Assembly: GCA_035570235.1 (NCBI GenBank)
Contig: DATMML010000038.1
Location: forward strand, 1 to 39,947
DNA length: 39,947 nucleotides
Reading direction: 5' to 3'
From: Vicinamibacteria bacterium
Lineage (GTDB): Bacteria; Acidobacteriota; Vicinamibacteria; Fen-336
The notes under the pieces are model-generated. The model worked only from the letters and a program-made list of their open reading frames with translations, made no database searches and was not told the origin of the DNA. A program made the translations under genes and the position numbers. Each line of letters opens with the position of its first letter. Position 1 is the stretch's first letter. This document shows positions 26,679-38,243 of this stretch, piece after piece.

Positions 26679-27245
26679 TTAGTAGCATCTCTGCATGACC
26701 CGCGCGGTGATCTGCGACGGGGCAGGTGGGTTCTCGCCCAGGCCAAGAGTGTGCAACATCTCGTGGATGACGAAAGCATCGGCGTCCGATGCATTCCGCC
26801 CCGCCCGGTCGGCGAAATGAGACACGCAGACGTACACGATCCGGCCTCCCGGCGTGGTGGCTCCGAGAATCGTCCCTGCCGAGCAGAGGTTTTGGCTGGA
26901 CCCGTCATAGAAGAGCAAACGGCCGAGATAAACCTGGGCCGTCTCGCCAAGCGTGTCGAGGGAGGCCTGGAGCGGCTTGCCGGAGGCGTCGACGAAGTCT
27001 GAAAGCACCTTCTGGCATGAGGTGGCGGCCAGGCGCCGGCTCGCATCAAGAACAGCCCGCTCGACCGCCCCGCGAGCGAGGCCGCGAATGCGAACGTTGG
27101 CCCCGTGGCGGCCCGCGGCCGTTGCTTCCGCCGGGTATCGCCTGAGGGACGAGCCCTCCCTGGGGTCGGAGCCGTGGGTCGAAGATGGGGCCAGAGCCAT
27201 GAAGACCGCGGCGAGCAGGCTCGAAGCGATGGACCCCGGGTACAT
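26679..27245 (-). CDS. Small secreted metalloprotease-like protein (HExxHxxGxxE)
   Basis: A 188-residue exported protein. A signal peptide covers about residues 1-25. The C-terminal part has HEMLHTLGLGE, matching HExxHxxGxxE, the zinc site of metzincin- and gametolysin-like peptidases. Four Cys residues suggest disulphides. GGAG stands six bases before the ATG. It is shorter than typical secreted metzincins, and no Met-turn was identified, so peptidase activity is likely but unproven. Confidence 0.65.
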   Translation of the reverse strand: MYPGSIASSLLAAVFMALAPSSTHGSDPREGSSLRRYPAEATAAGRHGANVRIRGLARGAVERAVLDASRRLAATSCQKVLSDFVDASGKPLQASLDTLGETAQVYLGRLLFYDGSSQNLCSAGTILGATTPGGRIVYVCVSHFADRAGRNASDADAFVIHEMLHTLGLGENPPAPSQITARVMQRCY

Positions 27246-27360
27246 GGTCGACTCCTTCTCCTGAAACGGCGCGGCCAGGCCCGCCGGGCGATGGCTTCAT
27301 GCGCCATCCTTAACATCGGAGCGGGCGACGGGAAAGTCCTAGGAGATGTCTAGCGAGTTT

Positions 27361-27424
27361 CTAGGGTTTTCGTGGCCGGGCATGGATTCGCCAGAAGCTA
27401 GGGTTTTTCTAGGTGCCCGGCATG
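27361..27424. repeat. Two CTAGGG-type repeats
   Basis: Copy A (27361-27384) and copy B (27398-27424) both start CTAGGGTTTT and end with a GCCCGGCATG-like block (GCCGGGCATG in A). Their starts are 37 bases apart. Copy B also has the inverted half CTAGG at 27409-27413, giving a near-palindrome. A related CCTAGG lies just upstream at 27339-27344. They sit 100-165 bases ahead of the 64-codon gene and downstream of the winged-helix/FHA regulator. Confidence 0.6.
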
Positions 27425-27525
27425 CCGGAACAAATTCAGAGATGGGTTCGTCCCTTCGGTTGGTCGGGGAGCGTGAAGAGGCGCGGTCGTGCCTCATGTT
27501 GGTGTAGACCTGACCGGGGGGTCCC

Positions 27526-27720
27526 ATGGACCGGCAAACAAGGGAATACCTGAGGGGCTTCGAGCGGGCCGCGTTGCTTGTTCAACGCGTACTGAGCGAC
27601 CCGCCGTCCTACAAGAACGCCGAGAGCTACGTCGAGGATGTAGCCGATCTCCATGTCCGGGCGAATGACCTACTGCGGCGTGGGATTGCCGTGGGGTGTC
27701 TGTCCGCGTTGGGAAGGTAG
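27526..27720 (+). CDS. Small hypothetical protein (64 residues)
   Basis: Not recognised. It is a compact, mostly helical sequence with balanced charge (DRQTREYLRGFERAALLVQ...), unlike the Arg/Pro/Gly-rich false frames nearby. It ends 25 bases before the stop of the convergent winged-helix/FHA gene. A GGGGGG stretch seven bases ahead of the ATG could serve as a ribosome site. The CTAGGG repeats upstream may control it. Confidence 0.5.
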   Translation: MDRQTREYLRGFERAALLVQRVLSDPPSYKNAESYVEDVADLHVRANDLLRRGIAVGCLSALGR

Positions 27721-27745
27721 TAAGGCGCTCGGATGATCGGGGGCC

Positions 27746-28399
27746 TCATTGATCGAGCGTCTCAGGGAAGGACGATGTCCGGGAGACGCGGAAGGTGAAG
27801 GCCACTGAGCCTAGACGGAATTCGTCTCCATCCGCTAGGCGCGTCGGACTTGCGAGCCGCTCTCCCAGGGTGAAGGTCCCGTTGCGGCTTCCCAGGTCCT
27901 CGAGGATCGCCTGCCCATCCGAGATCCGCAGGCGGGCGTGGCGGCGGGAGACACCCGCCGCGTCGAGGGGCACGATCGAGTTAGGGTGACGGCCGAGGAG
28001 GTACTCGCCCTCCGCTAGGGCCACCAACCCTCCCTCCCACGCCAGGCGATAGACAAAGGGACGGTCGGCCTCCGGAAAGGCTGCGGGTCCGAGCTCGCCT
28101 GCTTCGCCGCAGAACGCGTAGCCAAACCCATGGACGGTGCGAACGAACAGCGGGTTTCGCGCCCTGTCCCCGACCGCGGTGCGGAGCTCGGCGACCAAGT
28201 TGGGGAGATTGGCCTCCAGCACGTGGGTATCGGGCCAGAGACGCTTCTGGAGCTCCGCCTTGGCTACCACCCGGGGCCGCTGCTCCAAGAGCGCCTGGAG
28301 CAGCTCAAACACTTTGGGCGTCAGGTGGACCGGCTGGCCCGCCCGCCGGAGCTGCCGCGTCTCTGTGTCCAGCAAGCAATCGCCGAAGAGGAGCCGCAC
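27746..28399 (-). CDS. Winged-helix (OmpR/PhoB type) DNA-binding protein with C-terminal FHA domain
   Basis: A 217-residue regulator. Residues 1-95 form a trans_reg_C winged helix: LFGDCLLDTETRQL start, LTPKVFELLQALLEQRP, the KRLWPDTHV recognition region and VRTVHGFGYAF at the wing. Residues about 125-205 form an FHA domain: LLGRHPNSIV, SRRHARL and LGSRNGTF, the canonical phosphothreonine-binding GR, SxxH and NG residues. Such proteins link Ser/Thr kinase signalling to transcription. A GTG start with AGGAGG nine bases upstream is used. CTAGGG repeats flank the gene on both sides. The kinase gene starts 1.2 kb away. Confidence 0.85.
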   Translation of the reverse strand: MRLLFGDCLLDTETRQLRRAGQPVHLTPKVFELLQALLEQRPRVVAKAELQKRLWPDTHVLEANLPNLVAELRTAVGDRARNPLFVRTVHGFGYAFCGEAGELGPAAFPEADRPFVYRLAWEGGLVALAEGEYLLGRHPNSIVPLDAAGVSRRHARLRISDGQAILEDLGSRNGTFTLGERLASPTRLADGDEFRLGSVAFTFRVSRTSSFPETLDQ

Positions 28400-28553
28400 C
28401 TTTAATGCCCTCCTGGGTACGGCATGAGAAGCCCAGGCTCCCTTTCTCTGGCCCGAGTGGCGTCTTGATTATCGCGCGGACGGCTCGGGTTTCGAAGGTG
28501 GGGGAGTGCGGGCGCGGGCCCGACCCGGAAAGGAGTGGGCGCCGCCGGCAGGT

Positions 28554-28569
28554 CTAGGGTTTCCCTAGG
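28554..28569. promoter_or_regulatory. CTAGGG palindrome upstream of the small secreted protein gene
   Basis: Perfect inverted repeat CTAGGG-TTT-CCCTAG plus one G, lying 86 bases before the next start. It matches copy B at 27398 in sequence and in the trailing CCGGC block. It is a good candidate operator in the divergent region between the winged-helix/FHA regulator and the secreted protein gene. Confidence 0.55.
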
Positions 28570-28654
28570 AGTTCGGTCCGGCGTCGAACAAAGCCTTTCC
28601 AGCCACGTTCTTCACAATACGCCGTCCACGATGCGGGCGGTCAAGGAGGGTGTG

Positions 28655-29074
28655 ATGGCGAAATGGGTCCTCAAGGGTCTAGGGGCGGCAAGCCTGTTGG
28701 CCGTGCTCGCGGTGTTTTCCATGCCCGTCGAAGCTGCCGAGATGGCTTACAAGATCCCGTTCGGCTTCACCGTCTACGGCGCTGAGCTTCCACCGGGGAC
28801 ATACACCGTGTCCACGAGGGGAAGTGCGCTCCTCGTTCAGGGCTTCAACCACGGCGCGGTGGTCCTGACCATCCGCCTCGAGTCCGGGAAAGATGCGGGG
28901 GCGAGGCTTGTCTTTTCCAAGTACGGCGACCAATACGTGCTCCGGCAAGCCTGGATCGGCGAAAGCGTCGGGCGCGAGCTCCCGCGGCCTCGCTTGGAGC
29001 GCGAGCTCGCTGAGGCGACGCAAAAAGGAGCGACGGCCACTGCGGTGGAGAGGGTCGTCATCCCGGCCCTGTAG
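28655..29074 (+). CDS. Secreted small protein with IPFGFTV...LPPGTYTV domain
   Basis: A 139-residue exported protein. The signal peptide covers about residues 1-28 and ends near VEAAE. The mature start, IPFGFTVYGAELPPGTYTV, is a pattern common in small beta-rich secreted proteins of Acidobacteria whose function is not known. The ATG at 28655 follows GGAGG by five bases; the frame extends 40 codons further upstream without support. The C-terminal region is helical and charged (RPRLERELAEATQK). The CTAGGG palindrome lies upstream. Confidence 0.75.
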   Translation: MAKWVLKGLGAASLLAVLAVFSMPVEAAEMAYKIPFGFTVYGAELPPGTYTVSTRGSALLVQGFNHGAVVLTIRLESGKDAGARLVFSKYGDQYVLRQAWIGESVGRELPRPRLERELAEATQKGATATAVERVVIPAL

Positions 29075-29568: not shown

Positions 29569-32187
29569 ATGCCGGAGGAAGGCCGCCGTTTCGGCCGCTA
29601 CCAGATCGCCGAGACGCTGGGAGCGGGCGGGATGGGTGACGTCTACCGCGCCCGAGACCTGCAGCTTGGGCGTGACGTGGCGGTCAAGTTCCTGCCTGAT
29701 CGCTTCGCGCTCGATGTCGCACGCCTCGCGCGGTTCGACCGCGAGGCGCGGGCCGCTTCCTCCCTGAACCATCCGAACATCGTCACCGTCCACGAGGTAG
29801 GCGAACTCGACGGCGTGCCTTACATCGTGATGGAGCGGGTGGAAGGCCGGACGCTGCGGGAACTCCTGACCGACCGGCCCATGGCCCTGCGGATGGCCCT
29901 CGACATCGCTGCGCAGACTGCCGATGGGCTCGCCAAGGCTCACGGCGCGGGCATCGTTCACCGTGATCTGAAGCCCGACAACGTCATGGTCAACGCCGAC
30001 GGCTTCGTCAAGATACTGGACTTCGGCCTCGCGAAGCTGAGCCACGACTCAAGCGTCGGTGATGCGTCCTCCGCATCAACAACAACCGGAACCGACCCCG
30101 TCGTGCACGATCCAGATACGAAGGCAGGAGGAATTCTAGGCACGGTCGGCTACATGTCCCCGGAGCAGGCGGCGGGCCGGGAAGCGGACTTCCGGTCGGA
30201 TCAGTTCTCCCTAGGCGTCATCCTTTACGAGATGCTGACCGGGCGGCGGGCATTCCAGCGAGCTAGCCATCCCCAGACCTTGACCGCGATCATCGAGAGC
30301 GAGCCGGAGCCGGTGGAGAAGTACAACCCTGGCGTTCCCGCCCCCGTGCGCTGGATCCTCGAGCGTTGCCTGGCCAAGAAACCTGAGGATCGCTACGCCT
30401 CAACCCTGGACTTGGCCCGGGAACTTCTGGTGGTCCGCGAACACCTGGCCGAAAGCCTGCAGATCTCCACCCCCTGGGCGCGGAGCCCTCGGTTCCGCGG
30501 GCGAAAGTTGGCCGTCGCGCTCGGGGCCGCGGCGGTCGTCGCCGTGGGGGTCATCTTCCTTTCGCGCTCGCTGCTGCCCCCGACTCCGGCGCGTAGTCCC
30601 GACGCAAAGAGACCCGTGGTGGCCATCCTTCCCCTCGCGAATGTGAGCAGCGATCCGTCTCTCGACTATCTCGGTGTCGGCATCGCGGACCTCCTTATCA
30701 CCCACTTGGCCTCCCTGCCTGGGCTCACCGTCGTCTCGCGGTCGGCGACACTTCCTTACCAGGGGCAGCTACAGGTCACAAAGAAAATCGCCGCTGAACT
30801 CGGGGCCGCCCTTCTGATCAACGGGGCCGTGCATCGGTCGGATAGCAAGCTCTTGGTCACGGTAAACCTCGTTCGCCCCGATGACTCGGTCGCTTGGGGC
30901 GGGGACTACGAGGCGAAAATGGAGGACCTCTTCTTGCTGCAGCGCCGCCTGGCCGAAGGCCTGAGCGCGGCATTGCAGGTGACCTTGACCGCCGCCGACC
31001 GAGAGCGGCTGGCCCGGGCGCCCACCACCGACGTGAACGCCTTCGCGGACTATTCCCGGGCTCGCGCCCTCCTCGAACGCCCCGATGTCAAGGGGAACGT
31101 TGCCGGGGCCATCGAGGCCTTCCAGGCGGCGATCCAAAAAGACCCGAAGTTCGCTTTGGCTCACGCCGGTCTCGGCGAAGCCTATTGGGCCCTTTACCAG
31201 GAGACTAAGGATGCAGGAGCTCCGTCGCGGGCAACGGATTCAATCACGGAGGCGCTGCGCCTCGACCCCGGCCAGCCACGAACACGCTTTGCGCTCGCCC
31301 TCGTGTACAAGGGCACCGGACGCACCGACCCGGCGGTCGAGGAGCTCCAACGGGTGCTGACGCTGCAGCCGAGCGACGACGATGCCCACCGGCTGCTTGG
31401 GGACATCCTCTCCGACCGGGGACGCCCGGACGAAGCCATCAAGGAGTTCCAGAAAGCCATTCAGCTGCGGCCCAAATACTGGCCAAACCACAGCCACCTC
31501 GGGGGCGTTTATTTCCGCACTGGCCGGTTCATGGAGGCCGCGGCCGCGTATCGTCACATCACCGAACTGCAGCCGGACAACTCCCGGGGGTTTCAAATGC
31601 TCGGCGCCGCCTATCAGGCTATGGGAGATAAGCGTCAGGCCATCGAGAACTACCAGATGGCACTGGCGCTGGGGCCCGATGCCCGGGCCTACTCTAACCT
31701 CGGGAGTGTCTACTACAGCGAGAAGAAGTACGCGGACGCTGCCCGGGCCTATGAGGAGGCGGCCAAGCTCGAACCCTCGCCCGTCAAATACCGGAACTTG
31801 GGTGACGCGTACGATCGCATGGGGCAACACGAGAAAGCCAGCGATTCATACCGCAAAGCAGTCGCTCTTTGCGGGGATCAGCTCAGGGTCAACCCCAAGG
31901 ATGCGGAGGTCCTGGGCATGCTGGCCATCTCCGAAGCCAAGCTGGCCCGGCGGGCGGAGGCAAGTCGGCACGCGGCCGAGGCTGTCAGCCTACGACCGAG
32001 CGACGCCGGCCTTCTTTACCGCCAGGCGGTGGTCCACGCCCTCGCCGGAGAGCAGAGAGAAGCACTGGCCGCGCTCGAGCAGGCCCTGGGCCGAGGCTAC
32101 AGCGTTGCCCTCGCCCGCGACGATGACGACCTAGTCTCACTCCAGGCCCTGTCCCAGTTCCAGAAACTCATGAAGGGGTCCCGCTGA
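29569..32187 (+). CDS. Membrane Ser/Thr protein kinase with TPR array
   Basis: An 872-residue Hanks-type kinase. The kinase domain (about 8-275) has the glycine loop GAGGMGDV, VAVKF with the ATP-binding Lys, HRDLKPDN (about 130-137), DFGLAK (about 151-156) and the SPEQ loop. One transmembrane helix spans about 314-333. Outside the membrane comes a TolB/FlgO-like domain (VAILPLANVSSD, then LTVVSRS) at about 345-470. At least eight TPR units follow, to about residue 865. This layout is typical of Acidobacteria. It probably senses an extracytoplasmic partner through the TPRs and phosphorylates cytosolic targets, with the two FHA regulators as plausible readers. No strong ribosome site was noted. 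Confidence 0.9.
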   Translation: MPEEGRRFGRYQIAETLGAGGMGDVYRARDLQLGRDVAVKFLPDRFALDVARLARFDREARAASSLNHPNIVTVHEVGELDGVPYIVMERVEGRTLRELLTDRPMALRMALDIAAQTADGLAKAHGAGIVHRDLKPDNVMVNADGFVKILDFGLAKLSHDSSVGDASSASTTTGTDPVVHDPDTKAGGILGTVGYMSPEQAAGREADFRSDQFSLGVILYEMLTGRRAFQRASHPQTLTAIIESEPEPVEKYNPGVPAPVRWILERCLAKKPEDRYASTLDLARELLVVREHLAESLQISTPWARSPRFRGRKLAVALGAAAVVAVGVIFLSRSLLPPTPARSPDAKRPVVAILPLANVSSDPSLDYLGVGIADLLITHLASLPGLTVVSRSATLPYQGQLQVTKKIAAELGAALLINGAVHRSDSKLLVTVNLVRPDDSVAWGGDYEAKMEDLFLLQRRLAEGLSAALQVTLTAADRERLARAPTTDVNAFADYSRARALLERPDVKGNVAGAIEAFQAAIQKDPKFALAHAGLGEAYWALYQETKDAGAPSRATDSITEALRLDPGQPRTRFALALVYKGTGRTDPAVEELQRVLTLQPSDDDAHRLLGDILSDRGRPDEAIKEFQKAIQLRPKYWPNHSHLGGVYFRTGRFMEAAAAYRHITELQPDNSRGFQMLGAAYQAMGDKRQAIENYQMALALGPDARAYSNLGSVYYSEKKYADAARAYEEAAKLEPSPVKYRNLGDAYDRMGQHEKASDSYRKAVALCGDQLRVNPKDAEVLGMLAISEAKLARRAEASRHAAEAVSLRPSDAGLLYRQAVVHALAGEQREALAALEQALGRGYSVALARDDDDLVSLQALSQFQKLMKGSR

Positions 32188-37427: not shown

Positions 37428-38183
37428 TTAGTGTTTTGGATCCAGCAAGCCAGTCACTGAACGCTTCTTCCCGCACTCGAGGGCAACCTCTTTTTGGGGC
37501 GTGTTCCGGTCGTCACGGCGTCGACCCAATTGCCTGGCAGCGGTGAGATCAAGGTCATCCGTGGGATCCCAAAGAGCTGGAACTCGAAACGTGAGCGGCA
37601 GCGAGCCCAGGATTATGGTGTCGCCATCCCGAAGAGTCACTGGCCCTTCGACTCTTCCGCCGCTGACAAATGTTCCATTCCTGCTGCCCAAGTCTGTAAG
37701 GATGGCTCTGCGGCCGAGGATCCCGATCCGGGCGTGCTTTCTGGAGACACTCGAGGAATCAATGGGAACGACTGAGTCTGGATGCCGCCCGACTAGGTGG
37801 TCGCCTTCCCGCAGTGTTACACGACCTTCGTTGTAGACCAGCCAACAGAAAGCCTCCCCGTCGGCGCTCGGGACCTCCGAGGCGACCTCCGCTTTGAACC
37901 CATATCCGTATCCGTGGACTGTTCGGACACAGCGGGGTTCTTTCGGGCAGTCTCCCAGGGCAGCTCGGATTTCGGCGATGAGGTTGACGAGGTTGGCCTC
38001 GGCCACTGAGGTTGTGGGCCACAGTCGCTTCAGTAGCTCGGCCTTGGGCACCACGCGCGGGCGGGCCGCGAGCAGGATCTCCAAAAGTTTGAAGGCCCTT
38101 GGCGAGACGTGAAAAGGTTGCCCGCTCCGATGCAGCACGCGAGCGTCGGTGTCAATCGCGCACTCCCCGAACCTAATCTCCAT
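37428..38183 (-). CDS. Winged-helix/FHA regulator, second paralogue
   Basis: A 251-residue protein with the same layout as the one at 27746-28399. The winged helix is residues 1-95 (EIRFGECAIDTDARVL, VSPRAFKLLEILLAARP, LKRLWPTTSV, VRTVHGYGYGF). The FHA domain is about 125-210 (LVGRHPDSVV, SRKHARI, LGSRNGTF). It has a 35-residue charged C-terminal tail that the first lacks. The ATG at 38183 has GAGGTGG six bases upstream; the frame extends 11 codons further. A GTGCA/TGCAC inverted repeat and a CTAGGG half-site lie in its upstream region. It probably reads Ser/Thr phosphorylation. Confidence 0.85.
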   Translation of the reverse strand: MEIRFGECAIDTDARVLHRSGQPFHVSPRAFKLLEILLAARPRVVPKAELLKRLWPTTSVAEANLVNLIAEIRAALGDCPKEPRCVRTVHGYGYGFKAEVASEVPSADGEAFCWLVYNEGRVTLREGDHLVGRHPDSVVPIDSSSVSRKHARIGILGRRAILTDLGSRNGTFVSGGRVEGPVTLRDGDTIILGSLPLTFRVPALWDPTDDLDLTAARQLGRRRDDRNTPQKEVALECGKKRSVTGLLDPKH

Positions 38184-38201
38184 TAATTTCCACCTCGGGA
38201 C

Positions 38202-38243
38202 CCTAGAAAGGTGCAAATTTCGTGCACATTCCTTATGACTTGC
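38202..38243. repeat. Upstream sequence conserved with the decayed copy, copy 2
   Basis: CCTAGAAAG then TTCCTTATGACTTGC, matching 36497-36537. On the gene strand it contains GTGCA-CGAAATT-TGCAC, an inverted repeat that is not kept in the decayed copy, and CTAGGG, the core found at the other regulator's flanks. Confidence 0.6.

Follow-up and report, generated by a model that had tools for sequence, protein, structure and literature searches.

In a 39,947-nucleotide stretch of DNA from a Vicinamibacteria bacterium (hereafter the window), the CTAGGG elements around a gene encoding a winged-helix/FHA (wHTH-FHA) regulator (27746-28399, minus strand) are, to judge from comparative sequence analysis, probably operators of this regulator, which would serve a small regulon and activate an ECF-like promoter. 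This reading is the best supported one because the elements are locally enriched, conserved in four genera and found together with one regulator clade, and because 11-bp repeats occur throughout the regulator family.

CTAG repeats and the regulator locus

The original prediction had placed CTAGGG copies at 27361, 27398 and 28554, flanking the regulator gene and preceding a pair of small ORFs (27526 and 28655, both plus strand), and all three are present. The cores at 27339, 27350, 27409 and 28565 had been overlooked, as had the step between cores, which is exactly 11 bp within each of the groups 27339/27350/27361, 27398/27409 and 28554/28565. Five CTAG cores lie in 80 bp at 27339-27412 (Poisson P 1.9e-7, uncorrected for scanning), and of the five CTAG pairs that stand 11 bp apart in the window, four belong to these repeat sites. 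The features of the locus are the following.

27338-27366, plus strand: operator-like array O3, three CTAG half-sites (27339, 27350, 27361) in steps of 11 bp
27397-27413, plus strand: predicted operator O2, GCTAGGGTTTTTCTAGG, with one core at 27398 and another at 27409, matching TATAGGGTTTTTCTAGG of G003
27428-27452, plus strand: promoter-like pair GAACAAA...CGTC, 14 bp after O2
27526-27720, plus strand: small ORF of 64 aa, possibly a gene, downstream of O2 and O3
27746-28399, minus strand: regulator, 217 aa, OmpR-type winged helix (Trans_reg_C, PF00486, 2.4e-15) and C-terminal FHA domain (PF00498, 2.3e-17)
28468-28473, minus strand: GATAAT, probably the -10 of the promoter that drives the regulator gene (weak, motif only)
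28553-28569, plus strand: predicted operator O1, TCTAGGGTTTCCCTAGG, direct repeat with an 11-bp step between its TAGG cores, in front of the secreted-protein gene
28586-28592, plus strand: -35-like GAACAAA of ECF-sigma type, 16 bp past O1; GAACRA is equally spaced in six loci of four genera
28606-28609, plus strand: -10-like CGTT, 16 bp after GAAC
28655-29074, plus strand: SSP, a small secreted protein of 139 aa with a signal peptide, the predicted main target; homologues in G002, G003 and G010
38203-38238, minus strand: array of 11-bp repeats, TCATAAGGAATGTGCACGAAATTTGCACC..., upstream of the second wHTH-FHA regulator and common to paralogue C101

A genome-wide motif search, as had been proposed, gave different answers for the short and the long motif. 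By itself, CTAGGG occurs in the window about as often as chance predicts (16 copies, 14.8 expected), and it was rejected as a genome-wide motif. The longer element, in contrast, is scarce and concentrated here: CTAGGGTTT occurs six times in the 5.7-Mb genome, three of them inside the window, and CTAGG-N6-CTAGG five times, two of them inside it. An unrelated dispersed repeat family or chance clusters of CTAG, the outcome named beforehand as fatal to the operator idea, would agree with the chance level of the bare motif and with some matches elsewhere being incidental: the C109/L004 match lies within the reading frame of a transporter protein, and those of G011 and G013 lie inside tmRNA genes. 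We regard this explanation as most improbable, since the full element is nearly confined to the locus, its fixed spacing is kept in other genera and the copies lack repeat-family flanks. The Rfam scan matched nothing in the window; in ten relative loci a tRNA was its sole match. Another match, CCTAGACCGTCCCTAG (C119; L005 1501-1516), is intergenic, upstream of a SAM-methyltransferase-like gene, and comes without GAAC or CGT; in G002, the second regulator has a similar methyltransferase-like gene downstream of it (L069 4812, plus strand).

The copy at 28554 had been described as a perfect palindrome, and CTAGGGTTTCCCTAG is indeed found at 28554-28568; it resembles a palindrome because CTAG is its own reverse complement. 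As a general rule the palindrome was rejected in favour of a direct 11-bp repeat, which the other window copies keep while lacking a full inverted repeat. True inverted repeats were seen only at 28553 and in G009, whereas cores in direct orientation with 11-bp spacing are present in every listed copy. PhoB/OmpR boxes consist of 11-bp tandem half-sites, as bound by OmpR-type winged helices, and the elements agree with this type of operator both in the direct orientation of half-sites about 11 bp apart and in the Trans_reg_C regulator encoded nearby in G000, G002, G009 and at one of the two G003 sites. Two further details of the original prediction did not hold. The trailing CCGGC block, thought to be common to the copies, varies among them and is missing from most relatives. 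The half-site near 38202 (38201-38206) had been assigned to the second regulator, whose gene lies within 37428-38216 and probably starts near 38186. It is incidental, because the array that this regulator has in common with its C101 sister is another one, the 11-bp repeat listed above.

The regulator contains the canonical phospho-threonine-binding residues of FHA domains (GR, SxxH, NG), which are also found in 75 of 87 relatives. Its domains are Trans_reg_C and FHA (plus an overlapping Yop-YscD_cpl match), with no BTAD match. In structure comparisons the FHA part matched EmbR structures and the DNA-binding part the winged-helix fold. A GATAAT similar to that of the window gene precedes the orthologues in G002 and G003 by 11-26 bp. 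A gene for a Ser/Thr kinase with TPR repeats (872 aa, 29569-32187, plus strand) is located just downstream of the SSP gene, and the kinase is a candidate partner of the FHA regulator; the stretches read near the regulator orthologues contained no kinase gene.

Predicted target promoters and the composite site

O1 sits between the regulator gene and the divergent SSP gene, whose product has no family match. ECF-sigma promoters have a GAAC -35, a CGT -10 and 16-17 bp between them, and the elements downstream of O1 match this description in sequence. GAACAA-N14-CGTY alone was found 15 times genome-wide against 8 for the reversed control, and at this roughly 2-fold ratio we do not put it forward as a common type of promoter. 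A scan of the genome contigs gave nine loci, and the two that were read, L114 and L118, have no CTAGG repeat upstream. The SSP leaders of the window (28620-28650) and of G003 (L124, about 1465-1495) have GCCGTCCACGATGCGGGCGG in common just before the Shine-Dalgarno sequence; the window copy could form a hairpin, and the surrounding DNA has diverged between the two.

O2 and O3 lie between the gene of a 188-aa HExxH protein (26679-27245, minus strand) and the 64-aa ORF, for which a search found no homologues. The promoter-like pair after O2, besides which the window contains just one other of GAACAA type, has 17 bp from GAAC to CGTC, so that O2 is spaced 14+17 as against 16+16 for O1. HExxH-type secreted-protein genes divergent from wHTH-FHA paralogues (L066, L074, L079 and L096) were seen to have a common leader, CGCCTGGCCAGGCGGCTCC..GAAAGGAGTCGCCCATG, made of a 12-bp palindrome and then a hairpin sequestering the ribosome-binding site; this leader has no Rfam match, and its copy in the window (27245-27310, minus strand) is diverged.

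A fixed composite, in which NNTAGGGTTTTYCTAGG is followed after 16 bp by GAACRA with 16 bp from GAAC to CGTY, was found at six sites in four genera (G000, G002 twice, G003 twice and G009), all pointing toward secreted-protein or lipoprotein genes. The O1 distance is kept in G002 (two loci) and G003, and the 17-mer is identical in G009; the spacers within the six composites align at chance level or little above it. In G002, two tandem copies of a head-to-head pair of secreted-protein and regulator genes each carry the repeat between the partners, and in G009 the 17-mer stands upstream of a similar lipoprotein gene, near a 56-58% identical regulator. One G003 site is upstream of a lipoprotein gene adjoining its regulator. 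The other, on a different contig, precedes a secreted-protein gene with no wHTH-FHA regulator in the 11 kb read around it, which places any such gene at least 5 kb away. Since the targets differ (SSP, lipoprotein), the element is not a by-product of the ancestry of one gene.

Scanning 14 genomes of the family with TAGG-N16-GAAC-N16-CGTY gave 38 matches, and 30 loci were read. Among these the upstream half-site was found only at the window, G002 and G003 sites, the others agreeing in 0-1 of the four core letters; the G009 site also has it. The regulators of the four composite-bearing genomes form one clade (support 100/89), and the composite is absent from the 10 family genomes without that clade. 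These 10 include G010, which belongs to the genus of G003 and has an SSP homologue.

These observations bear on whether the operators might belong to another DNA-binding protein, such as a dimeric repressor or another wHTH paralogue of OmpR type, with the wHTH-FHA gene as a mere neighbour or target. The genome encodes many Trans_reg_C proteins, one G003 target lies away from a regulator, and O1 could hold a symmetric dimer because it is a perfect palindrome. However, the composite tracks a single regulator clade through four genera, inversion is confined to two of the copies, and wHTH-FHA genes generally have 11-bp repeats just upstream (see below), which makes a foreign owner quite unlikely.

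Eleven-bp repeats upstream of wHTH-FHA genes

The genome encodes five full-length wHTH-FHA paralogues, and up to seven good full-length matches were found per genome. Self-similarity at each offset was computed for the 100 bp upstream of the start of 83 non-redundant wHTH-FHA genes of the class. At offset 11, the self-match was 8.38 in 40 discovery loci, against 6.69 (sd 0.35) at other offsets, and 8.58 in 43 held-out loci fetched later, against 6.74 (sd 0.38). Shuffled sequences gave 6.84 (sd 0.18; maximum 7.35 of 300), the maxima for the two sets being 7.50 and 7.35. The signal appeared at offset 11 alone, and none was seen further upstream of the genes or inside them. About half of the 83 upstream regions have no strong 11-bp repeat; some of these genes may lie within operons.

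A motif sampler run on the same upstream sequences returned the half-site YCYNAGGAWTY, with CCCAAGGGATTTCCAAGGATTC as a typical pair and CCTAGG as one variant. CTAGGG is mainly a property of the clade of the window regulator, and half-sites in other clades have diverged. In a different family, TCTAGGGTTTTTCTAGGG occurs upstream of a regulator of a distant wHTH-FHA clade (G121, L180), where the CTAGGG half-site is either retained or convergent. The prediction of an operator for this regulator family is kept as the best-supported reading, with a tandem direct repeat in place of the palindrome, with CTAGGG largely restricted to one clade, and with the sites marking the promoters of predicted targets in a small regulon.

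In many paralogues the repeat is 15-50 bp upstream of the start codon and overlaps the likely transcription start, a typical place for autorepression. The bound protein might accordingly repress its promoter until an FHA signal lifts the repression. At the target promoters, by contrast, the repeat is 16 bp upstream of the -35-like element, where it would not obstruct polymerase and close to where activators classically bind, and we consider repression unlikely.

Predicted mode of action and related systems

Under the preferred reading, activation by the wHTH-FHA regulator, winged-helix protomers would line up head to tail along a single face of the DNA at two half-sites (three at 27338-27366) whose TAGG cores are spaced by one helical turn, or 11 bp. 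At the SSP promoter, 16 bp separate the pair from the downstream GAACAA...CGTT, which would bring the bound protein near -60, where it would most simply activate a promoter of ECF-sigma type. Recognition of phospho-threonine by the FHA domain may gate binding or oligomerisation, by analogy with EmbR. We infer regulator binding, activation, sigma class and kinase input alike. Counting against this model, there are only six clear composites, and O2 departs from the 16+16 spacing. The case for autoregulation across the whole clade is weakened because O1 is about 80 bp from the putative -10 of the window regulator and because no clear repeat immediately precedes the regulator gene of G003.

EmbR provides a precedent for a wHTH and FHA protein under a Ser/Thr kinase (PMC4601284). 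This mycobacterial member of the SARP family, a target of PknH, likewise combines an N-terminal OmpR-type winged helix with a C-terminal FHA domain. In contrast to EmbR, the acidobacterial regulator is 217 aa long with no BTA domain between the two, and its predicted sites are of CTAGG type, upstream of an ECF-like promoter; because it lacks the BTA domain, it does not belong to the EmbR/SARP family by definition. Direct repeats of 11 bp are bound by SARP proteins, whose DNA-binding domain is of the same kind (PMC10936776). The afs box of SARP/AfsR also resembles the sites described here in its two direct repeats 11 bp apart, bound by side-by-side OmpR-type domains (PMC10936776). It overlaps the -35 region, whereas the repeat at the target promoters stays 16 bp upstream of the -35-like element and is closer to the -10 at the regulator genes of G002 alone. 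PhoB/OmpR proteins share the winged-helix fold, but the regulator has an FHA domain in place of the receiver domain and a YCYNAGGAWTY half-site instead of TGTCA. The predicted operator would itself be a new variant, its 11-bp tandem OmpR-type layout being already known. To our knowledge no operator has been described for the two-domain wHTH-FHA type, and none was found in the literature collection that was searched.

Acidobacteria are abundant in soil and have many FHA and wHTH proteins. It is conceivable, although we put this forward tentatively, that wHTH-FHA paralogues across the Acidobacteria follow one regulatory code, controlling themselves and a few secreted-protein genes via clade-specific 11-bp tandem operators and linking Ser/Thr phosphorylation to ECF-type promoters with neither a BTA nor a receiver domain. 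Given a model of the half-site together with a defined target promoter, the regulator-operator code of this large paralogous family becomes directly testable, and the operator model offers a way to predict phospho-signalling targets in Acidobacteria.
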